Shown in pieces: positions 21,043-60,379 of a stretch of 64,000 bases of DNA (positions are counted from its first letter, which is position 1; each line of letters opens with the position of its first letter). The stretch covers positions 1 to 64,000 of the forward strand of contig NZ_JACCBX010000019.1 of NCBI RefSeq assembly GCF_013409995.1. The letters run 5' to 3'. The stretch comes from Neobacillus driksii. Its GTDB lineage: Bacteria > Bacillota > Bacilli > Bacillales > Cytobacillaceae. Made by a program: the position numbers and the translations under genes. A model generated the notes under the pieces. That model was not told the DNA's origin. It did not search any database and was given only the letters and a program-made list of their open reading frames with translations.

Positions 21043-23643
21043 CTATAATCTTGGATCAATTGGTTCCGCTTCTAATGCCAGTATTCCTAACACGCATTCA
21101 TGAACACGTTCCAATGACTCTCTCTTGACGAATCGATTCACAGCTTCGACACCAAGAGAGAATTCCTTTAAAGCATTGCGCTGCTTCTTGCCTGCATTCC
21201 GTTTTTTTAATCGAGTTAAATTTTCAGGAAGCAGATAATCAATCCCATAGATGATATGCAAATACTTGCGGCCTCTGACTTTTATCGCAGGCTGCAGAAG
21301 TTTGCCTTTGTGGCGTGTAATATAAGATTCTGGTTTCACCACAAATCCTTCATGACCATCCTCCGTCATTTCTTCCCACCATTTAATCGCCGCTTTCATC
21401 GACGGTTCATCACTAACAATTCGGTATTCTGTTTCTAAAAACAAACGCGAAATCCCGCTGAATTCTTTATTTTTCTCCATATGCCATGTATGCGGCTTAT
21501 CAAAAAATGTTTCTGAGCTGTGTGCCAATGTATGGAATGGTGCGATTTGAATTCCTTCCATTCCTTCTGTTTCCCAACAGTATTTCTGATACACGTCATT
21601 AAACACTTTGGCATTATCGATTCCTGCATCATTTTCTTGAACCCAACTTAAAACATCCTTCCCACTATCCAGAGCCTGCTGCAGTGAATTCTTTAATTTA
21701 TAACGGTCAAGCAGAGCCATTTCCCCTACATGTGCATATTGGTTTAAAATCAGGTCTTTCGCCTTCAAATTCCAAGGAAGAATTTCTGCGTCAAGTAATA
21801 CGAAGTCCGTATTGTATTTCTCGAAATAACCACTCTTCACTAAATCCTGATTCAGGGCACTGACAACTTTTTCTTGCAGCTCTTTTTGAAAAAATGCCCT
21901 CCCTGTCCGGGTATAAATGGTTCCTAACATTTCTCTGCCAACATACTCCTTGGCAATTTCTTGATTTTTAAATAAAAACAAAATTCCCCTGCTGCCCATA
22001 TGTTTCTTTTCGACAACCATCTTATCGACACCATTTGCTTGATAGTATTCGAACGCCTCTTGTGGGTGCTCAAGGTATTCTTCCAGACCAGACGGTTTTG
22101 GAGTCGGACTCATCGTAGGAGGGAGGTACACGATGTCTTCAAGCGGCAAGGTGAAATGAGATAAGTCATCTAAAGCCGGTTTCACACCATCATCATAAAT
22201 CCTAATCTCGCCGTACTGTTCCGTTAATACCGAATACCCTTCTAAGAATTTCATGATATTCGGTGCTGCCAGTCTCTTCCGTTCCCATTCCTTCAATGGA
22301 TTGTCAGGTACATTCGCATAATCCTGTTTCGCCTTGACCGAAACAAATTGTTTTTCAGGATAACGGTATGCCGTTAAACTGCCGCCGAAAACCACTCCTT
22401 GATCAATATTTAAAGTGTTATTAACCAACAAAGGTTGTGGCTTTGGATCATGTCCCCAAAGTATGAGTTCACTTGATTTATGGGAAACGGTCCAGTCTTT
22501 TCGGATCGGCTTACCACTCTCATCAAGCCCCTCACTATCACCATAGCGGCAAAAATCAGAAATACGGGGCGACTGCTTTCCGATATAATAGTCCTTGATT
22601 CCAGCATGAACAGCTACAACAGCATTAACCCCATTTTTTCGAATAATATAGTGAGATTTCGCTTGTAAGAGTAACTCTTTTATTTGTTCCTTTAACTTCT
22701 CGGCAGTCTCACTACCGAAATTACGCTCATATTCTTCAAATTCAGCAGCAACATTTTCATCACCATGTGCCATTTTTACATTTTTCCCATCGAGCCAGCG
22801 GGCTATTTTCCAGCCGTGATTACTGTCAATCATATAGGCAAGTCCTGCTGGAACATGCTTTTGGAAGAATTGAAGTGTTTCGATGGACCTTGGTCCCCGG
22901 CTCAATACATCACCTAATGAAAGAATTTTCCTTCCTTCTGGGTGGATGAAATACCCTTCATCGTTTTCCTTGTATCCAAGTTTGTTAAGCATTTCAAGGA
23001 ATTCATCCAAACAGCCGTGAATATCCCCGATGAAATCGATTCCAGTTCCAACATCAATATATAATGGATTTTCTAGTCTACTTACATTTACTACTTGAAT
23101 TTCCTCTTCTCCAAGCATATAAACACGGCGATATGGCTTCTTTTTTATGAACCGAAGTGTATTTTTAAAATGTTGATACTGCTGCTTGATGCGATTTCTT
23201 CCCCGAGGTAAAGCTCGCTCCATATCCCGTCTCATCAATTCCGTTTCTGAAATATTCAAGACCAACGCAATCACAGGCACATGATATTCCTTCCCCATCT
23301 GCAGATATTTTTCATGTTCTTCCTCTCGTAAATGGGTTGCGTCGATAAACGTTAACTTATTGAGTTTGCATCGTTTTGAAATAACGTAATCCATGGCCTC
23401 GAATGCGGCACCAGATATTTGCTGGTATTCATAAAATAATGCGTCGCTTTCGTCTTTGGGACGCCCGTTCCAGCTGATAAATTCAATATCGCTGACTAGA
23501 ACGCGAAATTGATCAGAGCTGACTACTTCAGATGGTTGAATCTGCTCTTCTTGTATGAATTGATTTAATAATGTTGTTTTCCCGGTATTAGAGGGTCCGA
23601 CTAACAGGACAATTCCTGCAGGTGGTAAATGAATAGTTGTCAT
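21043..23643 (-). CDS. pnkp: polynucleotide kinase-phosphatase-ligase (bacterial Pnkp)
   Basis: 866-residue three-domain RNA end-healing and sealing enzyme. Kinase: P-loop GPSNTGKTT (residues 16-24). Metallophosphatase: metal-site residues appear retained (Asp207/His209 in GDIHG, Asp245, Asn275, His346, His398), but GDxxDRG reads GDVLSRGP (Ser248 for Asp) and GNHD reads SNHGW. Ligase: KKHMGSRG with the likely AMP-accepting Lys547, then DAEILPWNLKA, EGFVVKPES and QPAIKVRGRKYL. In studied systems the Pnkp ligase needs the N-terminal half of Hen1 to adenylylate. Its ATG overlaps the hen1 stop codon by one base (TAATG), indicating translational coupling. The system repairs RNAs, classically tRNAs, cut by ribotoxins. 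Confidence 0.95.
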   Translation of the reverse strand: MTTIHLPPAGIVLLVGPSNTGKTTLLNQFIQEEQIQPSEVVSSDQFRVLVSDIEFISWNGRPKDESDALFYEYQQISGAAFEAMDYVISKRCKLNKLTFIDATHLREEEHEKYLQMGKEYHVPVIALVLNISETELMRRDMERALPRGRNRIKQQYQHFKNTLRFIKKKPYRRVYMLGEEEIQVVNVSRLENPLYIDVGTGIDFIGDIHGCLDEFLEMLNKLGYKENDEGYFIHPEGRKILSLGDVLSRGPRSIETLQFFQKHVPAGLAYMIDSNHGWKIARWLDGKNVKMAHGDENVAAEFEEYERNFGSETAEKLKEQIKELLLQAKSHYIIRKNGVNAVVAVHAGIKDYYIGKQSPRISDFCRYGDSEGLDESGKPIRKDWTVSHKSSELILWGHDPKPQPLLVNNTLNIDQGVVFGGSLTAYRYPEKQFVSVKAKQDYANVPDNPLKEWERKRLAAPNIMKFLEGYSVLTEQYGEIRIYDDGVKPALDDLSHFTLPLEDIVYLPPTMSPTPKPSGLEEYLEHPQEAFEYYQANGVDKMVVEKKHMGSRGILFLFKNQEIAKEYVGREMLGTIYTRTGRAFFQKELQEKVVSALNQDLVKSGYFEKYNTDFVLLDAEILPWNLKAKDLILNQYAHVGEMALLDRYKLKNSLQQALDSGKDVLSWVQENDAGIDNAKVFNDVYQKYCWETEGMEGIQIAPFHTLAHSSETFFDKPHTWHMEKNKEFSGISRLFLETEYRIVSDEPSMKAAIKWWEEMTEDGHEGFVVKPESYITRHKGKLLQPAIKVRGRKYLHIIYGIDYLLPENLTRLKKRNAGKKQRNALKEFSLGVEAVNRFVKRESLERVHECVLGILALEAEPIDPRL

Positions 23644-24986
23644 TATTCCTCCTCCCTTCGAAAAATAGCCATTTGCGTGGGCTGACCAAATGTTGGATGG
23701 TCTTCACCAATCCCTTGTATATTGACTTGATAAGGACAGTTTTGAGACCATTCTTTCACATTCTCTGCAAATTGTTCTCTCGTCCATTCAAAACGATGGT
23801 CATCATGACGCAATTCCTCTTCCATCTCATAGAGCACATTGTATTCCTGATTTGGCGTTGTCACAATCAGCGTCTTGGGACGATAATCATTTAAGATAAT
23901 ATCAAAAATTTTTGACAGCCTGTCTTCCTCAATATGTTCAATCACTTCACATAAAATGATGATATCTATGTTTTGTAAACGGCTATCATAATAAAACAAT
24001 GAACCTGGCATGGATTGTGGCTTCACATATCCTATTGTCTTCATTACTTGCTCAAATCGTTCCATCGCCTTAATTCGTGCTTTATTCGAAGGCTCTATTG
24101 ATAGAATTTCGTGAACGCCTTCTATAAAACCAAGCTGGACTGAGAGACGGCCTTCCCCAGCACCTAGGTCCACAATTGTTTGTTTGTGGGGCAGCGTTGT
24201 TATATAGTTTACTATGTGTTCATAACGAAGATCATTTAACCTTACTTTTTGGCTCTCATCCTGATTACGGATGTGCGGCTTCTTTTCGTAATATTTTGAT
24301 TGAGATATAAGCGCGTTAAAACGAAGTGCCCGTTTTACAATCAGCTGTTTTAGGGGATGGTTTTCCAGCCACCCTTCACCGTATCGATCGAGTTTCTCAA
24401 TTTCTCTTTCATCTAAAAAATAATGCTTATAGTTATCAATCACAGGTATCAGTATGGATACATGCTTTAATGCATTCTGAATGCTCTGGCTGCCAGATAG
24501 TGTGACAAATCGAGCTGAGCTCTTTTCCTGAATCGTGCTGACTCCACGCTCAATTTCCACCTTGTACCCAATAGGTTCAAACAAATCAGCAATCTCTTCA
24601 TCCTGTAAATCCGTTGCCACTGGACCAAATGCCAACTCCATATCGAATTCGTGTCCTACCCATTTCAGGTATTCTTCATCTGGCTTTCCATTTAAAGCAG
24701 TACCTAGAGCCTTGCGGATGGTGGTGATAAAAAGGCTGCTGACGGCGAACTCGCGGTCATTTATGTAATGAGTGATATCAAATAAGTCTGAGGAGTTTCG
24801 CACTAAATCAATCGGGTCGGGCTTTACATAAATCAAAAACTGAACTTCATCTTTTGTAAAAATAGGATAGACGAGCCGAACCTTGAAGCCTTTCTCATCA
24901 CGCTCATACGGGTTATTCGGGTTCTTTGCGATAAGATAAGAGACTACATCTGCCCCCGATCCCCTTACCGTTAATGATAGCTGCAT
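23643..24986 (-). CDS. hen1: 3'-terminal RNA ribose 2'-O-methyltransferase Hen1
   Basis: 447-residue partner of Pnkp. The N-terminal domain (about 1-240) matches the bacterial Hen1 region that activates the Pnkp ligase. The C-terminal domain is a SAM methyltransferase: VDLGAGEG (272-279) binds SAM, and the Mn2+ site ExxEH (Glu347, Glu350, His351 in CEVIEH) plus the distal His397 in DHRFEW is complete. It marks the 3' end at the cleavage site with a 2'-O-methyl before sealing, making the repaired RNA resistant to re-cleavage. The ribosome site is weak (GAAAGTGAAGTG). A hairpin (25076-25114) and the 52-bp repeat array lie upstream. Confidence 0.95.
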   Translation of the reverse strand: MQLSLTVRGSGADVVSYLIAKNPNNPYERDEKGFKVRLVYPIFTKDEVQFLIYVKPDPIDLVRNSSDLFDITHYINDREFAVSSLFITTIRKALGTALNGKPDEEYLKWVGHEFDMELAFGPVATDLQDEEIADLFEPIGYKVEIERGVSTIQEKSSARFVTLSGSQSIQNALKHVSILIPVIDNYKHYFLDEREIEKLDRYGEGWLENHPLKQLIVKRALRFNALISQSKYYEKKPHIRNQDESQKVRLNDLRYEHIVNYITTLPHKQTIVDLGAGEGRLSVQLGFIEGVHEILSIEPSNKARIKAMERFEQVMKTIGYVKPQSMPGSLFYYDSRLQNIDIIILCEVIEHIEEDRLSKIFDIILNDYRPKTLIVTTPNQEYNVLYEMEEELRHDDHRFEWTREQFAENVKEWSQNCPYQVNIQGIGEDHPTFGQPTQMAIFRREEE

Positions 24987-25165: not shown

Positions 25166-25880
25166 CTTTATTTTACATTTCGGTCATTCCAGACCACCTG
25201 CATTGACCGAAACCACTTTTCAATTTACATTTCGGTCATTCCAGACCTCCTGCATTGACCGAAACCCTTTTCAATTTACGTCCGGGTCACTCCAGATTGA
25301 TTACCTGCATTGACCCAAACCCCTTTTCAATTTACGTTTCGGTCACTCCAGACCTCCTGCAACGACCGAAACCCCTTTTCAATTTACGTTCGGGTCACTC
25401 CAGACTACCTGCATTAACCCAAACCCCTTTTCAATTTGCATTTCGGTCACTCCAGACCTCCTGCAACGACCGAAACCCCTTTTCAATTTGCATTTCGGTC
25501 ACTCCAGACTACCTGCATTGACCGAAACCACTTTTCATATTCCATTTCGGTCACTCCAGACCTCCTGCAACGACCGAAACCCCTTTTCAATTTACGTTCG
25601 GGTCACTCCAGACTACCTGCATTACCCCAAACCCCTTTTCAATTTGCATTTCGGTCACTCCAGACCTCCTGCAACGACCGAAACCCCTTTTCAATTTGCA
25701 TTTCGGTCACTCCAGACTACCTGCATTGACCGAAACCACTTTTCATATTCCATTTCGGTCACTCCAGACCTCCTGCAACGACCGAAACCCCTTTTCAATT
25801 TGCGTTTCGGTCACTCCAGATCTCCTGCAATGACCGAAACCCCATTATATTTCAAATCTCGGTCACTCCAAACCCACTGA
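25166..25880. repeat. 52-bp tandem repeat array with inverted arms
   Basis: About 13 full units plus partial units at both edges. Each unit has a left arm TTTCGGTCA, a core CTCCAGACCTCCTGCA or close variant, a right arm TGACCGAAA, and a linker CCCCTTTTCAATTTGCA. Arms can pair as a 9-bp stem. A variant class (units beginning near 25280, 25386 and 25594) has CGGGTCA on the left and ACCC(A) on the right, a compensatory C-G to G-C flip. Units 5-8 (25380-25587) recur as 25588-25795 with one difference in 208 bp. One unit has a longer core (near 25290). The array abuts the stop codon of the upstream regulator gene. Confidence 0.95.
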
Positions 25881-25881
25881 T

Positions 25882-26925
25882 TTATATCGTACCGATGAAA
25901 TTCAATGAGGAGATATCCTTGGAATCTACGGCACCATCCAAAATTTTCTTAACGTCATTTAATGTATCCTTGAGACTAACTTCCGCTCCTTTAATACCCG
26001 TAAAGTCTTCAGCAACATAGAATGGCTGTGTCAAATATGCCTCTAAACGTTCGCCTCGATGATACGTCTCAATTTCTGAAGCAGGGATACCGTTAATCCC
26101 CTTTACATTTACGAGGGAACGTAGTTCACGGTAGCGGCGTAATAGTTTTTGCGCTTTTTGTTGGATGGTATGGTGGTTTTGATCTAGGTGAGCGCCTTCC
26201 AATACGGAAGATGTAGAGTAGATTGGGTTTACCGCTGGGAATCGATGTCTTGCTGCTAAGTCCATATCAAACTGCCATAATGTTTCAAGCGGTCCATATG
26301 GCAGGTCTTCATCCACTGAGGCCCCTTTTAAATCTAGTAAAAAGGTTGTAACGGACTTGATATCGACATCTTGTAATTTTTCTTGAAGCTCGTAGATTTC
26401 CCCTGTTAAAACATGTGAACGGTCAGCAACAAAAATAATCTCTTTAGTTTTACCTACCACTGACATCTCTTCGAAAGCCTTTTCAATTGACTCAGCAACA
26501 ATCTCTGTATCTTCTAGAATTTCCGCTAACTCTGGGTGATCGTTTTCTGGTTTTAATAATACGGTTGCAAAACCCTCTCTCTTAAAACGGTAAAATAATT
26601 CTGCTAACACAACCAACTGACCCATACCTGGTCGAGCAACAAGCCCAATGGTGCCTCCCTTTACAATTGGCGCAAACAAATCTAAAGTTTTAATTTTCGT
26701 TTCAATCATCTCTACATTCTCCCCTCTTAAAATCAATTCATCTAGACTACATTGTGCTAATTCTGCTAAAGCTACGATCGTACGTACTTCAGAGCGTCCT
26801 ACAGGAATTTTCCCAGTGCATAGGTTTGAAACGGTTGCAGGCCGTAAACCCACTTCCTTTGCAGCACTGGTAAGATTGGGCACCCTTCTTCGCAACAATG
26901 GAACATTCAATCTTATATTTTCCAT
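25882..26925 (-). CDS. HTH DNA-binding protein fused to a degenerate F1-ATPase beta-like domain
   Basis: 347-residue protein. Residues about 15-70 form a helix-turn-helix domain (LTSAAKEVGLRPATVSNL and the following helix). From about residue 75 it follows the F1/V1 ATPase catalytic-subunit pattern: IETKIKTLDLFAPIVKGG, then a P-loop position that reads ARPGMGQL where AtpD has GGAGVGKT, so the Walker Lys and Thr are lost. Later blocks also match AtpD: FPAVNPIYSTSSVLE, KLLRRYREL, LTQPFYVAEDFTGIKG and SLKDTLNDVKKILDG. Probably an oligomeric regulator that no longer hydrolyses ATP. AAGGAGG is 9 nt before ATG 26925. It points toward the repeat array and hen1-pnkp. Confidence 0.85.
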   Translation of the reverse strand: MENIRLNVPLLRRRVPNLTSAAKEVGLRPATVSNLCTGKIPVGRSEVRTIVALAELAQCSLDELILRGENVEMIETKIKTLDLFAPIVKGGTIGLVARPGMGQLVVLAELFYRFKREGFATVLLKPENDHPELAEILEDTEIVAESIEKAFEEMSVVGKTKEIIFVADRSHVLTGEIYELQEKLQDVDIKSVTTFLLDLKGASVDEDLPYGPLETLWQFDMDLAARHRFPAVNPIYSTSSVLEGAHLDQNHHTIQQKAQKLLRRYRELRSLVNVKGINGIPASEIETYHRGERLEAYLTQPFYVAEDFTGIKGAEVSLKDTLNDVKKILDGAVDSKDISSLNFIGTI

Positions 26926-26960
26926 TATTTTCACCTCCTTACTTTATATAGTAAATTATG

Positions 26961-26999
26961 TTACTCTAAGACGCAACAATAAGTTACGCTTAAGAGTAA
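26961..26999. promoter_or_regulatory. 39-bp imperfect dyad, candidate operator of the HTH/beta-like gene
   Basis: Two 17-bp arms (26961-26977 and 26983-26999) match in inverted orientation at 13 of 17 positions, with TTACTCT/AGAGTAA at the outer ends and GTTAC/GCAAC inside. It lies 36-75 bp upstream of the regulator's start codon, overlapping the likely promoter (-35-like TTGCGT inside it). Autoregulation is inference. Confidence 0.55.
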
Positions 27000-27336: not shown

Positions 27337-30300
27337 TTACTCCATGATGTAGCACTCACGGATTTGCGTGTTGCCCTTGGTGTCGACGTAGACCTTGTAG
27401 GCTCCAACCTCATAGGTGTCGGCCGCGTTATTGCTGATGCTGAAAGTCTCGCTGATGACGTTCGTGTTGCCGTCGGACAGCTCCTCGGAGATTTTGATAG
27501 TTAGGTTGTTCTTGTTGCCGGACAGCTGCTCGACCGAGGCCGACGGAGTTGCCGAAAGCACAACAATCTCTTTCCAACCGGCGTACAACGTCATGTCGTT
27601 GGTGACAGGCATGTCGAAGTTCCATGGTGTTTCAAGCTTGGAGTCGCTGAACCAGCCGTCAAACAGGAAGCCGGCCTTGGTCGGGTCTTCGGGCTTTTCA
27701 ATTTTGCCGCCCTCACCCACAACCAGAGAAGCAATCTCAGAACCACCGTTTGTATTGAACGTCACAACGTGATCTCTATCGGTGGCGTCTACTCTCACGT
27801 TGTGTAGCATGACGGTGTTATTGGTTGTCATACCGCTGCCGGCGTAGTCGTAAGAGGAGTTGCCAGAGTTGTTAATGCGAATGCCGAAGCCACCAAAATT
27901 GTTGTTACCCAAATCGCCGGTTTCATCCGTCCACGAGAGGTCGACCGAATTGGGAAGATTTTGTTGGATTTGCAACGGCGTCTTCTTGGACAGCGTCGAG
28001 GCCTGTACGCGAAGGGTTCTGCCCGTTACAGAAACGGTCATGGTGCTCTTCGGCATAAACGCAGCTGTCCTAAGTGGCTGGCTCAACGGAGTCTGATTGG
28101 TGCCATCATATTTATACAGCGTCCAGATCGTTGCGTTAGAGCCGCCCGCAGCGGTACGTTCTACGCGCAGGCCATACCCCACGCGGGTCGCTGGATCGTA
28201 TTTTACATAGATATCCATGAAGTTGCCGTTCCCGCCGAAGCCCTGACCCTCTACCTTACTGGAGGAGTAGTTCAGGACCATCGACATGTCGCTGTAGTTG
28301 CCGGTTTGACCGAACACGAATCTGGTGTTCGTACCGCCGGAATTGTTCTGAAGTCCCCAAATCTTATCCGTGCCGTTGGTTCCAATCCCCCATCCCCACG
28401 GGACTGCTGTACCGCTCACACGGTCAAAAAACCATCTGTTCTTCGTGGTGGTATGGTCTTCATTGATAAAATACAAATTCTTAAAGTCGGTATACAACGA
28501 CTTTTCCGTTACATCGGCCGCCGTGACCGCACGCTTGGTGTATACCGTGATGGGTGCGCCGGTGGAGCTGAACTCATACTTCGGTGTGATAACGGCGCGC
28601 AGGTAGTAACCTACATCGTACTTATTAAGAGCGTATTTTTTATATGGTTCGTCTACAAAGAATTCGTTAGTGTCGTTGCGCATCGTCCCGATATGAATGC
28701 CGTTTGTAGTATCGGGACCTGTCTCGTGGTACCATTCGATCACGGAGGTATCCTTGTATCCGAGCTGGTCCAGCGTATAGCTAAGCGTCGCAAGGTTCTC
28801 GCTGATATCAATTGCGGGTGTCGTAACTACAGGTGCGGGGACAGCCGTCGGGCGGATATACAGCGTCGCGCCGGCTGAGATACCGCTCGGAAGCGTGCCC
28901 GTCACAATCGTCTTAACGATCGCGCCGGTATTGTTGGGCTTGGCAGTCAGCGTAATGACTCCAGTCGCTGCGTCAACGGTGCCGTTCAACAGATTCGTAT
29001 CGTACGACCAAACGGTATTTTTCACGTCAACAGAATCCGCTGGAGCCGGGGCGGGTGTCAAAACGGCCCTGTTGGTATTGTCCGTTTTGTCGGAATACAT
29101 GGTTTTGCCCTTTGCTTCGATTAAGAATCGATACGGAAGGTGGGCGTAAGGTTCCCACTCAGCGTTGTACTGGCCTTTAGGGTCCCAACCGTCATTCCCC
29201 TTTAAGAGGTTATACACGTTGTATTCCTCGCCAACTTTAAAAGCATTGAGGGCGTTTCCAGTAAGCGTGACAGAGGTTTGCGGCTGTGATGGGCTGATTA
29301 CGAGCGGCTTTTTTTCCTCACCGATTGTGTTGTTCGACACAAAGTGGCGGGAGTCCTCGCGCACCACGTTTTCCCACTCGACAGATTCGATCCGGCCAGT
29401 GAACTGGGTATCGATGATGGCGAAGATCCCGTTCGCGTTAGGGCCGATTGCGCTCGACTGCTTGGCAAGATAAACATCTGTACTGGTCATTTGCGGCATG
29501 CCGATGACTTTGCTGCCCAAAAGGACGCTGACGCCCCCATTACCGGCACCGTTGACGGACGGATGGTTGCCGAAGAAGTGGAAGGTACAGTTCTCGTACA
29601 CATTGACACCGCCGGCGAAAATAGAGTCGTCGGTTAATTGGAAAAAGCTGTCTTTGAAATACGCACGTGTGGGCGCAAGTCCAAGCATCATGTTCAAATA
29701 GCCGACGAACCGCGTGTTTTTAAAGTACAGCTTATCTGGCGCACCCGTGCCGTTAGCCCTTGTTAAAACCTCGGCATGATTTTTGGAGTCTAAACGCTTT
29801 TTCATATTTTGCGACGGATCTCGCGGATAAACCAAATCCTCCTGCGCGTAATTTGCAATGGTGATGTTCTCGCTGTGGAAGCCCGAGGATATGCCAAGTG
29901 AATACCAGCTGCCGTTTGCGCCTAAGCCGGTCTCGCCCCCCTCGCCTCGGTTGCCACTGATGATCGCGTCTGTAGCATCCTCAGTAAGGCCGAGGAAAGA
30001 GATGTTTTCGCCCAAAATGCTAAGGCCGATATTCGGACCTGCAATCACGCCGCCTTCCTTATACGTCAAATCCGTCCAGTACACGCCGGGGACTACGTAC
30101 ACAGTCGTGCCCTCGGGCAGTGCCAGCTCACGTTGATTTTCGGACAGCGTTCCCAAGGTCTGCAGCGTCTTTGCGACGTAAGGGTTTTCAAGCTCTTCAG
30201 CCGAGGCGTAGGCATTCAGCAGACGATGCTTCTCGTCCACCTGGACCCACTTTGCGTACAGCGTCATCAATCCGACGACCTTGTTGTTCAAAAAGTCCCA

Positions 30301-30837
30301 CATATGGACGCTGGTGGTTTTATCCGTGTACCAGCCCACAAATACCAAACCGTCTTTTTTAGGACGCTCCGGAACCTCGAGCGTGTCGCCGGCGTACACG
30401 TGCTGAGGATCGACTGCGCTGCCGCCGTCGGTGTCAAACGTTACCAACAGGGATTCGCCGCTTACCTCGCCGGTTAAGTTGTTGATGAGGTCGTTCGCCG
30501 CTTCTAAGGCAGTACGCGCTTCTTGTGCCGCAGCCTTTTCCTCAGACGAATCTTCTTTGGCAGTTTCCAAACCGTTCGCCAGTGCTTTTACTGCGGCCAT
30601 CTGCGATTGCAGCTGGGCAACCGTGGTAGTGTTGTCCGGCTTGGCCTCCTTCAATGTGGTTACCTTGTTCTGGAGTTCCATCTTAGCGATTTCCAATTGG
30701 TTGATTTCTTCTTGATCAAACCCAGTGCCTGCCGGGGTAGCTACGTCATTGCCTTCCGCGGCAAACGCGATTGTCATGAACATGTTGAGCACAAGCAGAA
30801 CGCTGGTCAGAATACTGACTGCTCTTTTTACTGCCAT
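27337..30837 (-). CDS. large secreted pectinesterase-like protein with InlB repeats
   Basis: 1166-residue exported protein. Signal peptide about residues 1-27 (ends AFAAEG), then a helical Gln/Lys/Glu-rich segment (30-130), an InlB/Flg_new repeat (VTFDTDGGS...LYAKW), a right-handed beta-helix resembling pectin methylesterase (CE8), Ig-like linkers, a lectin-like region with GFGIRINNSG, a second InlB repeat (VTFNTNGGS...LYAGW) and a C-terminal domain ending YKVYVDTKGNTQIRECYIME. Classical CE8 motifs are altered (DDSIFAGG for DFIFG, no LGRPW), so catalysis is uncertain. Composition is clearly richer in G+C than neighbours, suggesting acquisition. ATG 30837 has AAGGAG 10 nt upstream. No sortase motif. 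Probably acts on plant cell walls. Confidence 0.85.
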   Translation of the reverse strand: MAVKRAVSILTSVLLVLNMFMTIAFAAEGNDVATPAGTGFDQEEINQLEIAKMELQNKVTTLKEAKPDNTTTVAQLQSQMAAVKALANGLETAKEDSSEEKAAAQEARTALEAANDLINNLTGEVSGESLLVTFDTDGGSAVDPQHVYAGDTLEVPERPKKDGLVFVGWYTDKTTSVHMWDFLNNKVVGLMTLYAKWVQVDEKHRLLNAYASAEELENPYVAKTLQTLGTLSENQRELALPEGTTVYVVPGVYWTDLTYKEGGVIAGPNIGLSILGENISFLGLTEDATDAIISGNRGEGGETGLGANGSWYSLGISSGFHSENITIANYAQEDLVYPRDPSQNMKKRLDSKNHAEVLTRANGTGAPDKLYFKNTRFVGYLNMMLGLAPTRAYFKDSFFQLTDDSIFAGGVNVYENCTFHFFGNHPSVNGAGNGGVSVLLGSKVIGMPQMTSTDVYLAKQSSAIGPNANGIFAIIDTQFTGRIESVEWENVVREDSRHFVSNNTIGEEKKPLVISPSQPQTSVTLTGNALNAFKVGEEYNVYNLLKGNDGWDPKGQYNAEWEPYAHLPYRFLIEAKGKTMYSDKTDNTNRAVLTPAPAPADSVDVKNTVWSYDTNLLNGTVDAATGVITLTAKPNNTGAIVKTIVTGTLPSGISAGATLYIRPTAVPAPVVTTPAIDISENLATLSYTLDQLGYKDTSVIEWYHETGPDTTNGIHIGTMRNDTNEFFVDEPYKKYALNKYDVGYYLRAVITPKYEFSSTGAPITVYTKRAVTAADVTEKSLYTDFKNLYFINEDHTTTKNRWFFDRVSGTAVPWGWGIGTNGTDKIWGLQNNSGGTNTRFVFGQTGNYSDMSMVLNYSSSKVEGQGFGGNGNFMDIYVKYDPATRVGYGLRVERTAAGGSNATIWTLYKYDGTNQTPLSQPLRTAAFMPKSTMTVSVTGRTLRVQASTLSKKTPLQIQQNLPNSVDLSWTDETGDLGNNNFGGFGIRINNSGNSSYDYAGSGMTTNNTVMLHNVRVDATDRDHVVTFNTNGGSEIASLVVGEGGKIEKPEDPTKAGFLFDGWFSDSKLETPWNFDMPVTNDMTLYAGWKEIVVLSATPSASVEQLSGNKNNLTIKISEELSDGNTNVISETFSISNNAADTYEVGAYKVYVDTKGNTQIRECYIME

Positions 30838-30910
30838 CAGGCATACACTCCTTCTCTTTTTTATATTAGCTCTGTTATCTTTCATTGTTGATTTTCGTAG
30901 GTATAGAACA

Positions 30911-31259: not shown

Positions 31260-33668
31260 TTACTCTACGATATAGCACGCGCGGACTTGTGTGTTTCCTT
31301 TTGTGTTGACGAAGACTTTGTAGTCGCCGACAGTATAAGTGCCTTCCGCATTGTTTTTGATGGTGAATATATCAGTAATTTCATGAGTTGTGCGATTTTG
31401 ATAGGTTTCTGTTACTGTCACAGTCAGCTCATTTTGATTAGAGTTTAGTTTATTGACCACTGCTGAAGTCGCAGCATCCACTACTCTCAACTCGCCTACC
31501 AGATAAACATCCGACCATTCACTCGCACCGGCAGAGTTGAGGGCGCGGACTCTAAATGAATATGCGCCTCCTTCTTCAGCCTCGGCAAGAATGGATCTTA
31601 GATTGGCAAACTGGTCGATATCCTGGGTAATGAAGCTTGTTGGACGGCCATTGGCTTTAACTGTCTTAAGGGTTGTCCACTCATTAGAGCCTTGATCCCA
31701 TTGAATTTCATATTTTTCTGTCAATACATCTTTATTCACCCAGTTGACGGTGAAGGTATTTTCATGGACAACTATTTTACCTGGCGCTTCAATAAATTGT
31801 CCCACCGCAGAACGTACTTCATCATTAATGACAACACTTGAAATTACAGGAGTTGTTGGCGCCTCTTGTACTTTCGCAGCATGTTGGGCACCGGAATAAG
31901 ATTCAATTTCAGTTCTTAAAGCCTGGGATTGTTCCGCTGTACCTGTTGGCCAAACACCTTCTTCACTAGGTCTGAACTTCCAATCCAATTGCGCAGCCGG
32001 ACTTGTTGACATATTTGGATTAGTAGTGGTCGAATCATGGGCAACGACGATTCCCACATCTTCTTTTACATTAAAGTTTTTTGCAGAGCTTTCGTCAAAA
32101 ACATTCGGTTGAAGGTTCAGAGCAGCTTCTCTGAGGGCATCAAGGTCTTCTTGGGTAATGCCAGGCATGACATCGTTAAGGGTTCTAAAGCCTTCTAAGG
32201 TTTCAGGGAAATCCCCTTCCGTCACAGCTTCATAAGAAACGATAAATCCTGGGGCATCACCGAAGAAGTGATTATATCCGGCATTTGGAGTTCCTGATGG
32301 CAAGTCAGATCCGAAATCGTTGGATTGGAAGCCTCTTGCGTGTCCTTGACGGCTTCTCAGGAATGGGAAGTTGACATGGTCGAAAATATTCCCTTCTGCC
32401 CAAACGTTGGCATTATGGGCAGCACCGATTCCATAACCAGTGTTACGTTCAAAGAGAGTATTATGATATGGATGTCCTTGAACGTCTTCGAATAGGTTGT
32501 TGAAGACGTGAACGCGACCATTGCGCACCCGTGGTGTTCTTTCTTCAGAGCCTTCGAACCAGTTATGATCGATGGTTCCATAGTGCGCGCTGATTGAGCT
32601 GGTACCGCCACCAATCAGCATTACTTTACTGCTGCCGTTGAAGTGGTTGTAGGCAATGGTGTAGTTTCTTGCGTGGTTGGTGACATCAACTGCGCCGTCG
32701 CCTTTCGCTTGGTCCGGATCGGCCGCATTAGCAAGGTACAGATTTTGGCCATAACCAAAGTTGTTGTTGTGCACCCAATAATTTGAAGCTCTTGTGGTTG
32801 TGTTTTGACCATTAAGTTCAATGGCGTCATTTGGCCAATAATCGAAGTTCAGGTTGCGGATGACAATATTGTGGGCGCCCCCGGTACGAATACCCCACCC
32901 ATAAAGTAATGCATCCGGACCGATACCTTCAAAGGTGATATTTCCGTTACCTGCACCGACTAAGCGGTCATCACCGGTAACAGTCCCTACGAAACGAACG
33001 ATTAACGGCGTACGTTTATTTGGAATATCTCCTCTGTCTGTTTGCAATACTGCATTTCCCCAGAAAGTTGTTTCTTTATTTTTTTCGGTGACATAGATGA
33101 TTTTTGCTTCAGGATTTACGCGTCCATCAGGCAGATAACCACCTACGGCTCCATCTAAAGCAAACTCATGATTTCCTACAAATTCATTTTCATTAGACGG
33201 AACAAACGCAGCTCCATTACGTGGGAACGAGCGCGTTTCCAAATTGGAAAACGTTTCAAGGACTTTTCCTTCTCTGTCCCGAATCTGAATTTCATATTCG
33301 CCTTTAGGTAGGCCGGGAATATCCACGCGCCAGGTGCCGCGGGCTTTGTCTACTACACGAACCAGCAGTTTGTTTTCTTCGTCATTAACTAACGTCCAGT
33401 CTGTTAAGAAGTCTTCGATCAGGCTGCCATCGCGCCAATCGACGATGTTTTCTCCTTTGATATAAACTTCATAGTCTGCATCAGTGCTTCCTGTCCAAGT
33501 CGCAAAAGCGGTCTCAAACCAGGTCCCGGCTTCTGTGGTAACTATTTCATTAGAAGCTGCCGACACCGGCGAATCATTTGAGAAAATCGGCACGTACTCG
33601 AATGATGAAAACGCCAACATCGTCACTAATACGATACCGATTCCTTTTTTTACTCTTGAATAAAACAT
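31260..33668 (-). CDS. secreted pectate lyase (PL1-like) with Fn3 domain
   Basis: 802-residue exported enzyme that would cleave polygalacturonate by Ca2+-dependent beta-elimination. Signal peptide about residues 1-37 (VSAASNE). An N-terminal accessory domain is followed by a parallel beta-helix: KGDGAVDVTNHARNYTIAYN carries the Ca2+-binding Asp pattern, and ERTPRVRNGRVHVFNNLF carries the catalytic RxPxxR. A fibronectin-III domain (about 620-720) precedes a C-terminal domain ending YKVFVNTKGNTQVRACYIVE, shared with the pectinesterase-like protein. Start ATG 33668 follows GGGGAGGAG; a longer frame to 33782 lacks support. Two cre-like sites lie upstream, pointing to CcpA repression. Confidence 0.93.
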   Translation of the reverse strand: MFYSRVKKGIGIVLVTMLAFSSFEYVPIFSNDSPVSAASNEIVTTEAGTWFETAFATWTGSTDADYEVYIKGENIVDWRDGSLIEDFLTDWTLVNDEENKLLVRVVDKARGTWRVDIPGLPKGEYEIQIRDREGKVLETFSNLETRSFPRNGAAFVPSNENEFVGNHEFALDGAVGGYLPDGRVNPEAKIIYVTEKNKETTFWGNAVLQTDRGDIPNKRTPLIVRFVGTVTGDDRLVGAGNGNITFEGIGPDALLYGWGIRTGGAHNIVIRNLNFDYWPNDAIELNGQNTTTRASNYWVHNNNFGYGQNLYLANAADPDQAKGDGAVDVTNHARNYTIAYNHFNGSSKVMLIGGGTSSISAHYGTIDHNWFEGSEERTPRVRNGRVHVFNNLFEDVQGHPYHNTLFERNTGYGIGAAHNANVWAEGNIFDHVNFPFLRSRQGHARGFQSNDFGSDLPSGTPNAGYNHFFGDAPGFIVSYEAVTEGDFPETLEGFRTLNDVMPGITQEDLDALREAALNLQPNVFDESSAKNFNVKEDVGIVVAHDSTTTNPNMSTSPAAQLDWKFRPSEEGVWPTGTAEQSQALRTEIESYSGAQHAAKVQEAPTTPVISSVVINDEVRSAVGQFIEAPGKIVVHENTFTVNWVNKDVLTEKYEIQWDQGSNEWTTLKTVKANGRPTSFITQDIDQFANLRSILAEAEEGGAYSFRVRALNSAGASEWSDVYLVGELRVVDAATSAVVNKLNSNQNELTVTVTETYQNRTTHEITDIFTIKNNAEGTYTVGDYKVFVNTKGNTQVRACYIVE

Positions 33669-33813
33669 TTTGATACTCCTCCCCTTACTCCGTTCACACC
33701 AAGGAAATAACCCCCTGGTATCTTCTTTTTTTGACCCTTTTGCTTCCGGTCGAAGTTTCAGTAACTCCCCTTGAAATATCAATCTGATTTCCTCCTTTCT
33801 TGATTAATTCTAA

Positions 33814-59285: not shown

Positions 59286-59291
59286 ATGAGA

Positions 59292-59372
59292 TACCGGTGG
59301 TCGGGGTCGAACCGACACTCCAGAGGAACACGATTTTGAGTCGTGCGCGTCTGCCAATTCCGCCACACCGGC
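59292..59372 (-). tRNA. tRNA-Leu (CAA)
   Basis: Long-variable-arm tRNA with anticodon CAA in CTCAAAA. Last gene of the operon. No CCA is encoded (the end reads ATCT) and the first pair of the acceptor stem is G-U. Confidence 0.92.
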
Positions 59373-59375
59373 ATT

Positions 59376-59449
59376 TGGCAGGGGTAGTAGGAATTGAACC
59401 CACACCAAAGGTTTTGGAGACCTTCGTTCTACCTTTAAACTATACCCCT
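59376..59449 (-). tRNA. tRNA-Trp (CCA)
   Basis: 74 nt with encoded CCA; anticodon CCA in CTCCAAA. Confidence 0.95.
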
Positions 59450-59470
59450 ATAAAAAGTAATTAAATAACT

Positions 59471-59555
59471 TGGTGGAGGGGGACGGATTCGAACCGCCGA
59501 ACCCGGAGGGAGCGGATTTACAGTCCGCCGCGTTTAGCCACTTCGCTACCCCTCC
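59471..59555 (-). tRNA. tRNA-Tyr (GTA)
   Basis: 85 nt with long variable arm and CCA; anticodon GTA in CTGTAAA. Confidence 0.95.
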
Positions 59556-59585
59556 ACATTGGAGAAATCACTAATATGAAATTTA

Positions 59586-59678
59586 TGGAGGAGGAAGAGG
59601 GATTCGAACCCCCGCGCGGTTTGACCCGCCTGTCGGTTTTCAAGACCGATCCCTTCAGCCAGACTTGGGTATTCCTCC
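59586..59678 (-). tRNA. tRNA-Ser (TGA)
   Basis: 93 nt with long variable arm and CCA; anticodon TGA in CTTGAAA. The discriminator base is T where Bacillus tRNA-Ser usually has G. Confidence 0.95.
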
Positions 59679-59691
59679 GAATAAAAATTTT

Positions 59692-59768
59692 TGGTAGCGG
59701 CGGAGGGGATCGAACCCCCGACCTTACGGGTATGAACCGTACGCTCTAGCCAGCTGAGCTACACCGCC
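59692..59768 (-). tRNA. tRNA-Met (CAT), elongator type
   Basis: 77 nt with CCA; GGCGGTGTAGCTCAGCTGGC start is the elongator form, not the initiator. Confidence 0.93.
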
Positions 59769-59807
59769 AAATGTCTAAAGAATTGTAAGTTTATCGTGAA
59801 ATTAACT

Positions 59808-59883
59808 TGGTGGAGCCTAGCGGGATCGAACCGCTGACATCCTGCGTGCAAAGCAGGCGCTCTCCCAGCTGAGCTAAGGCCCC
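59808..59883 (-). tRNA. tRNA-Ala (TGC)
   Basis: 76 nt with CCA; anticodon TGC in TTTGCAC. Confidence 0.95.
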
Positions 59884-59898
59884 AAAAATTGTGCTTGA

Positions 59899-59975
59899 TG
59901 GTCGGGAAGACAGGATTCGAACCTGCGACCCCTTGGTCCCAAACCAAGTGCTCTACCAAGCTGAGCTACTTCCCG
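59899..59975 (-). tRNA. tRNA-Pro (TGG)
   Basis: 77 nt with CCA; anticodon TGG in TTTGGGA. Confidence 0.95.
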
Positions 59976-59983
59976 ATAAAATA

Positions 59984-60060
59984 TGGCGCGCCCGAAAGGA
60001 GTCGAACCCATAACCTTCTGATCCGTAGTCAGACACTCTATCCAATTGAGCTACGGGCGC
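59984..60060 (-). tRNA. tRNA-Arg (ACG)
   Basis: 77 nt with CCA; anticodon ACG in CTACGGA (A34 becomes inosine). Confidence 0.95.
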
Positions 60061-60089
60061 ATTTTATACTTTAACTTGTATTCTTTAAA

Positions 60090-60178
60090 TGGTGCCGAGG
60101 ACCGGAATCGAACCGGTACGGTAGTCACCTACCGCAGGATTTTAAGTCCTGTGCGTCTGCCAGTTCCGCCACCCCGGC
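60090..60178 (-). tRNA. tRNA-Leu (TAA)
   Basis: 89 nt, long variable arm, CCA encoded; anticodon TAA in CTTAAAA. Confidence 0.95.
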
Positions 60179-60183
60179 AACTT

Positions 60184-60258
60184 TGGAGCGGAAGACGGGA
60201 TTCGAACCCGCGACCCCCACCTTGGCAAGGTGGTGTTCTACCACTGAACTACTTCCGC
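60184..60258 (-). tRNA. tRNA-Gly (GCC)
   Basis: 75 nt with CCA; anticodon GCC in TTGCCAA. Confidence 0.95.
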
Positions 60259-60294
60259 ATTTATGGTAAGTTATTTTACTATCGCAAAAAACTT

Positions 60295-60379
60295 TGGTGC
60301 GGGTGAAGGGAGTCGAACCCCCACGCCTTGCGGCGCCAGATCCTAAGTCTGGTGCGTCTGCCAATTCCGCCACACCCGC
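60295..60379 (-). tRNA. tRNA-Leu (TAG)
   Basis: 85 nt with CCA; anticodon TAG in CTTAGGA. First gene of the operon; the order Leu-Gly-Leu-Arg-Pro-Ala-Met matches a B. subtilis rrn-linked tRNA block. Confidence 0.95.

Follow-up and report, generated by a model that had tools for sequence, protein, structure and literature searches.

The 64,000-nucleotide (nt) stretch of Neobacillus driksii DNA analysed here (the window; contig NZ_JACCBX010000019.1, positions 1 to 64,000) encodes, on its minus strand at 25882-26925, a protein in which an XRE-like helix-turn-helix (HTH) domain is fused to a degenerate body related to the beta subunit of F1-ATPase (AtpD). This protein, hereafter the regulator, is probably an autoregulated transcriptional repressor with a dead F1-beta effector body and a small hydrolase regulon that varies with the species, a proposal built on the comparison of genes, promoters and structural models. 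The features of the gene are as follows.

25882..26925, minus strand: regulator gene, 347 amino acids, XRE-like HTH plus degenerate F1-beta (AtpD) body, from the open reading frame (ORF) and from profile and structure searches
26725..26925, minus strand: HTH domain, residues 1-67, from family alignments, the AF2 model and fold matches
26614..26637, minus strand: degenerate P-loop ARPGMGQL, residues 97-104, where the genome's own AtpD has GGAGVGKT, from the alignment of 76 members
25885..26289, minus strand: stretch most like AtpD, residues 213-347, with adenine-pocket-like aromatics and the C-terminal helical domain, the best stretch of the atpD profile

The ORF runs from an ATG at 26923-26925, with a GTG 9 nt farther out, to the stop codon at 25882-25884. 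The similarity of residues ~70-347 to AtpD is far above chance, as judged from the NCBIfam atpD profile (expectation value, E, 7.8e-35) and from F1-beta chains in the PDB (E 2.4e-29), the next-best NCBIfam profiles being those of the mycoplasma F1-like ATPase and of the alternate F1 (N-ATPase) beta subunit. Pfam ATP-synt_ab was found at E 2.7e-6, narrowly under its cut-off, and ATP-synt_VA_C was also matched. The AlphaFold model of the regulator, obtained with 56 aligned orthologues as input (predicted local distance difference test, pLDDT, 81.5; predicted template modelling score, pTM, 0.71), matched F1-beta chains in Foldseek with E 7.8e-19. Comparison of the predicted structure of residues 70-347 confirmed the F1-beta fold, comprising the nucleotide-binding and the C-terminal domains, with Z 23.9, a root-mean-square deviation of 3.2 Å over 276 aligned residues and 27% identity in the top row, rows within Z 1 of one another being tied. 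The fusion of an HTH with a 'dead' F1-ATPase beta-like domain, as proposed in the initial annotation, is thereby borne out. The accompanying statement that AtpD is tracked 'almost end to end' applies from about AtpD residue 132 onward; the N-terminal part of AtpD and three core segments, residues 192-199, 231-243 and 255-278, have no counterpart in the body. The regulator scored only 120.5 bits, as a partial match, against the 462.85 bits set as the cut-off of TIGR01039 (ATP synthase subunit beta), and the genome's own AtpD is encoded elsewhere, on C5, away from the regulator. The latter is an F1-beta homologue but not an ATP synthase subunit.

The N-terminal domain scored under the Pfam gathering thresholds for HTH families (15.2 versus 23 bits for HTH_3; 18.4 versus 27 bits, E 0.0027, for HTH_31). 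When residues 1-75 were modelled alone (AlphaFold, AF2), a five-helix Cro/CI-like (lambda-repressor-like) fold was predicted with pLDDT 87.1, with helices at residues 8-14, 18-24, 29-37, 44-56 and 61-64. CylR2, SinR and ImmR were among the best rows for this model, with Z values of 7.2-7.9, modest matches of which the best Foldseek E was 0.014. The segment formed by residues 26-40, GLRPATVSNLCTGKI, is nearly invariant across the family alignments. No family of the PADLOC anti-phage models matched the regulator at E 0.01.

The state of the nucleotide site was determined by aligning the genome's own AtpD with 76 members of the family, which remained out of 80 once identical sequences had been discarded. 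The P-loop lysine, AtpD K165, is replaced by Gln in all 76, as is T166 by Leu, Ile or Val and G160 by Arg, while R192 and R257 find no counterpart in any member. An intact GxxxxGKT is absent from the P-loop position in 76/76; a GxxxxGKS string does occur in seven members, but within the HTH region (residue 40) and not at the P-loop. The replacement of the Walker A GGAGVGKT by ARPGMGQL, noted initially for the one protein, is therefore a degeneration common to the whole alignment. By contrast with these losses, the Walker B Asp is retained in 75/76 members, and positions 229, 302 and 308, aligned to what we take to be the aromatics of the beta adenine pocket, are aromatic in 76, 76 and 73 of the 76 sequences, respectively. 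From the alignment, phosphate binding should be lost, and a nucleoside-like pocket may survive in the body.

Upstream of the gene, a series of related palindromes overlaps the presumed promoter.

26939..26954, minus strand: operator palindrome 1, TTACTATATAAAGTAA, covering the -10 box, 20.0 bits
26961..26976, minus strand: operator palindrome 2, TTGCGTCTTAGAGTAA, covering the -35 box, 15.8 bits
26984..26999, minus strand: operator palindrome 3, TTACTCTTAAGCGTAA, 18.7 bits
27005..27020, minus strand: fourth, weaker palindrome, TTACGTTTAAAGTTAA, 11.3 bits
26948..26976, minus strand: inferred promoter, TTGCGT, 17 nt, TACTAT, within operators 2 and 1, read from the sequence

The two-site 38-mer of the window scores 48.0 bits. 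The family operator consists of repeated 16-bp palindromes, for which the symmetric profile has the consensus TTACTTTATAAAGTAA, about TTACtnTwwAnaGTAA. Among 79 family promoters, 0, 1, 2, 3 and 4 sites of at least 7 bits are found in 3, 1, 14, 41 and 20, respectively, so that 75/79 contain at least two, with a background of 0.22 sites per kb; the profile was built from the same 79 promoters that it scores, a set that includes near-identical strains. Neighbouring palindromes lie 22 or 23 bp apart in 125 of 156 cases, and 21-23 bp apart in 143. The location of the -35 and -10 boxes inside the operators recurs across the family promoters, and repression is argued from this position of the sites over the promoter boxes. 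A generic sigma-70 scan did not list the TTGCGT/TACTAT promoter at 26948-26976.

Operator and gene go together across genomes. Within the order-level set, the 38-nt two-site pattern, with at most one mismatch, was detected in 61 of 397 genomes, namely in 59 of the 88 that carry the gene versus 2 of the 309 that lack it (Fisher p 1.4e-45, a value overstated by the relatedness of the genomes), while the reversed control pattern was found in 3/397. The profile gave 163 hits above 14 bits in the 1.03 Mb of DNA that surrounds the 62 named genes (both strands counted, one palindrome often being scored twice), and every one of them falls 14-614 nt upstream of the regulator, at 60 of the 62 loci; the two loci without such hits are L056, where the contig starts 51 nt upstream, and L086. 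A further profile, R1, built from 49 of the regulators' own promoters and yielding E-values that the tool itself describes as rough, matched 77/80 gene-bearing genomes at E 0.05 (the misses being G012, G021 and G029), 30/34 further gene-bearing genomes at E 0.01 (misses G287, G350, G715 and G738) and 2/80 gene-lacking genomes at E 0.01, stricter filters having been applied to the first 80 gene-bearing and the 80 gene-lacking genomes than to the 34 further ones. The two hits in gene-lacking genomes (L308 and L309) were set aside, with at most 7.2 bits on the promoter profile. The predicted operator and its tie to the regulator gene are strong comparative results, and palindromic operators at the regulated promoters indicate that the regulator would act like an XRE-type repressor.

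The same palindromes bear on the idea that the body would compete for a genuine F1 subunit, so coupling the state of ATP synthase to gene expression. The F1-beta fold and the good conservation of the C-terminal domain would suit such a sensor. However, the three core segments missing from the body, some of which presumably face the alpha subunit, lie near the nucleotide site, and the palindrome TTACNNTNNANNGTAA is absent both from C5 240,014-451,873, the region that holds atpD in the window's genome, and from the 4 kb upstream of atpD (L148), which makes this sensor very unlikely.

In the mechanism that we prefer, the XRE-like HTH, probably in dimers, would bind the 16-bp palindromes, and protein bound at tandem palindromes, about two helical turns apart and spanning -35 and -10, would block RNA polymerase. 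From the 22-23 bp spacing, we infer that dimers would lie on one face of the helix and, thus, that contacts between bodies would be allowed. The F1-beta-derived bodies would let neighbouring dimers touch on that face, the body probably being an assembly module, with cooperative binding as the expected outcome. Having lost the P-loop lysine, the body would bind an effector at the retained adenine-pocket-like site, and effector binding would free the promoters. The core target would be the regulator gene itself, to which an M3 oligopeptidase, an M29 aminopeptidase, an acetamidase/formamidase-like amidase, alpha/beta hydrolases and an ATP-binding cassette (ABC) transporter would be added according to the species.

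These additional targets emerge from comparison of the operator matches. In the first 80 genomes, R1 matched eight places away from the regulator gene at E 0.0025 (hand count; chance expectation ~0.2), and all of them are among the targets named here. Paired operators were found upstream of an M3 oligopeptidase gene in G267 (E 2.0e-7), G038 (6.7e-6), G227 (2.4e-5), where an M29 aminopeptidase follows, and G113 (3.7e-5), and upstream of a truncated M3 gene, a fragment assigned by eye, in G401 (E 0.0033). An acetamidase/formamidase-like (FmdA-like) gene lies behind the operator in G202 (2.3e-4, then an alpha/beta hydrolase) and G239 (0.011), and is the first gene of an apparent operon in G180 and G301, with the regulator directly behind; in G737, the array is amidase, alpha/beta hydrolase and regulator (operator E 2.6e-4). 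A PF22316 hydrolase-like gene follows the operator in G267 (1.4e-6) and G311 (1.3e-6), and G229 has operators before two genes, one for an alpha/beta hydrolase (0.0012) and one for an ABC transporter (0.0022), the best profiles of which are those of exporters. G401, G311 and G737 belong to the second genome set, the target types of which repeat those of the first. The M3 assignment was obtained with NCBIfam TIGR02289, above its cut-off for one protein of the three, and with PDB 3ahm (E 1.8e-155), and the HEAGH motif is intact in the four full-length proteins; on these grounds, the idea that the M3 targets are dead peptidases was dropped. Pfam at E 0.001 returned no family for three M3 proteins or for the truncated one of G401.

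The nature of these genes is relevant to what the body may sense. One possible, if doubtful, alternative is that the regulator has a metabolic role and represses the use of peptides and amides; its body would then sense an adenylate-type or peptide-derived metabolite and tune oligopeptidase and amidase. The TIGR02289 M3 oligoendopeptidase, the targets of the FmdA_AmdA family and the retention of adenine-pocket-like aromatics in 73-76 of the 76 members all fit it, but no peptide importer or nitrogen-assimilation gene is found among the inspected targets, and the exporter-type transporter of G229 does not fit. That transporter, along with the amide, peptide and ester hydrolases, would agree with a target-mimic sensor, in which the body would be an F1-beta decoy that binds toxins directed at F1-ATPase and derepresses the enzymes and the transporter that destroy or expel them. 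The body descends from a protein known as a drug target and has a destroyed P-loop, and the family is patchily spread (88/397 genomes of the order, with one plasmid-borne copy); both observations point the same way. Nevertheless, the M3 and M29 peptidases would suit peptide nutrition equally well, and the residue (A296) aligned to what we take to be the Arg of the mitochondrial beta subunit in contact with aurovertin is Ala in 94% of members, so that an aurovertin-like site is not preserved. The decoy is thus judged unlikely, and we give similarly little weight to its fuller version, a decoy repressor that would sense F1-beta-binding natural products or metabolites, induce hydrolases and transporter, and read the tandem operators cooperatively through F1-type body contacts.

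Several observations weigh against an autoregulated repressor with a hydrolase regulon. Repression is deduced from operator position only, and the upstream-most sites could serve activation; 3/79 family promoters have no site and 1/79 a single one. The promoters from which R1 was trained come partly from the same species as the searched genomes, so that some of the self hits are to be expected. Among the R1 matches listed, which for the first 80 genomes end near E 0.02, targets beyond the array of the regulator itself appear in 9/114 gene-bearing genomes. Two ambiguous hits at promoters, both off the hydrolase theme, precede a UDP-glucose dehydrogenase-like gene in G215 (L271; E 0.0066, 14.9 bits) and a 2-oxoglutarate-dehydrogenase E1-like gene in G352 (L305; E 0.0026, -0.7 bits on the promoter profile). 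A looser tandem pattern gave 106 matches in the 80 gene-bearing genomes versus 60 for the reversed control (hand sums), so its single off-gene hits are not trustworthy. In the window's own genome, the single palindrome occurs in 22 places versus 30 for the reversed control (per strand), so only paired sites are trusted, and the only off-gene R1 hit listed there, at E 0.01, is an unpaired palindrome that precedes a yacL-like gene. For this genome, only autoregulation is supported by the predicted sites.

A number of candidate sites were discarded. With the looser pattern, the off-gene places inspected were L202-L208 and L212-L214, about two dozen others lying outside that sample: L207, L208 and L212 are inside ORFs, L213 (G277) is intergenic, yet absent among the R1 matches listed, and L214 scores at most -4.1 bits. 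The R1 off-gene places inspected after the first targets were L270-L279, of which L270 was kept, L272, L274, L277 and L278 score at most 5.5 bits on the promoter profile, L273, L275 and L276 are inside ORFs, and L279 is an unpaired yacL-type site. The 22 single-palindrome places in the window's own genome comprise the gene's own two, six that were inspected (L110-L115) and 14 others; L111, L112, L114 and L115 overlap ORFs, and L113, before a thioredoxin-like gene (named by eye), is intergenic but unpaired. L110:1851-1866 (G000 C22:7850) is a single perfect palindrome identical to that at 26939-26954 of the window, located between disA-like and yacL-like genes (by eye). The palindrome before the yacL-like gene is also present in the close relative G016.

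Orthologues at the 62 named loci belong mostly to Bacillaceae and Planococcaceae-type genera; a few are from Paenibacillus and one is from Exiguobacterium. The regulator is present in 18 of 60 related genomes, the other 42 having matched via AtpD only, judging by E-values, in 32 of the 135 genera of the order-level set, and in 19/398 genomes of a class-level set, four of which also belong to the order-level set. Among the 88 order-level copies, those of G268 and G283 are fragments with an internal stop. In the class set, the G738 copy leaves the contig end with a frame change, and that of G715 (L168:5814-6593) contains the body only, with no HTH readable immediately upstream in any frame; the latter copy looks like a 5'-truncated remnant, and no operator was found in its genome with R1 at E 0.01. 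A plasmid copy in Paenibacillus cellulositrophicus, annotated as 'hypothetical protein', has two operator sites upstream. G069 also encodes an HTH-less dead F1-beta paralogue (L144:5386-6231; loop ARSGMGQV), with tandem palindromes upstream (R1 E 0.0034), which is possibly a partner or an antagonist of the full-length protein. Among phage records, the best 10 of 19 matches share 24-30% identity and are AtpD-like.

In the window, the regulator precedes two RNA-repair genes on the same strand, which are neighbours only, hen1 lying outside the conserved unit.

23643..24986, minus strand: hen1, TIGR04074 338.8 bits (cut-off 340)
21043..23643, minus strand: pnkp, TIGR04075 778.3 bits (cut-off 750)

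This arrangement had suggested a regulator or scaffold partnering Hen1-Pnkp, and the adjacency is indeed found in the window and its close relatives. As a conserved linkage it fails: with flanks of up to 8 kb, shorter at contig ends, hen1 and pnkp occur near the regulator in 6/62 named loci, where the regulators are 90-96% identical to that of the window. In the 60 related genomes, Hen1 is found in 15, in nine of them together with the regulator and in six alone, and the genes are adjacent in 6 of the 18 regulator-bearing genomes. No operator was found at hen1 in the window or in the flanks of the 62 named loci, and the only strong operator in the window is that of the regulator's own promoter. 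A role in RNA repair is, hence, extremely improbable, and the link, as judged from gene order, is local and not supported as a general rule. The occurrence of the gene apart from repair genes in relatives refutes the linkage only; the notion of a motor subunit recruited as a regulator, of a DNA-binding kind, is supported by the confirmed F1 fold, by the loss of the P-loop throughout the family and by the probable cognate operator. More generally, the regulator has no conserved neighbour: the top family is present in 16/62 loci, on both strands, so that conserved neighbourhood was dropped as a functional clue, and the gene is not encoded with ATP synthase alpha and gamma at the 62 loci. Between regulator and hen1, a 52-bp unit is repeated 13.5 times in tandem in the window (25172-25874); the two genes are ~900 bp apart here, versus about 160-330 bp in the six named relatives in which hen1 is likewise adjacent. 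Elsewhere in the window, two large minus-strand ORFs at 27337-30885 and 31260-33782 have similar C-terminal ends (NTQIRECYIME and NTQVRACYIVE), and eleven tRNA genes are clustered on the minus strand at 59290-60379.

Among known proteins, XRE/Cro-CI one-component repressors, such as CylR2, SinR and ImmR, share with the regulator the HTH fold and palindromic operators over their own promoter, but the effector body of the regulator is F1-beta-derived. With AtpD, the regulator shares the fold of residues 70-347, the Walker B Asp (75/76) and the adenine-pocket aromatics, and it differs in lacking the N-terminal part and three core segments, in its dead P-loop, in the HTH fusion and in having no conserved neighbours. 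The sensor of BlaR1 resembles the drug target. The likeness of the regulator to BlaR1/MecR1 would be limited to the proposed decoy logic, with a target-like domain sensing for the induction of a hydrolase, and no homology is claimed; unlike the regulator, BlaR1/MecR1 is a membrane receptor acting via a protease (PMC9834060). The mycoplasma F1-like ATPases and the N-ATPase beta subunit are, as is the regulator, F1-beta paralogues outside the standard synthase. The former, unlike the regulator, carry both Walker motifs, A and B, and are encoded in seven-gene clusters, as described in PMC3369863. An HTH fused to an F1-beta-derived body was not found in the full-text literature among the matches listed, which is weak evidence given that few subscription papers were covered, and a term search did not find 'helix-turn-helix' in PMC4154653 or PMC3369863.

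Given a defined likely operator and targets that are simple enzymes, the question of the effector is directly testable with a lacZ reporter. Should the body sense F1-directed compounds, the regulator would be a natural biosensor for ATP-synthase inhibitors. If the proposed mechanism is true, the regulator would be a clear example of how a subunit of a core energy machine lost its active site and came to serve a transcription factor as its regulatory body.
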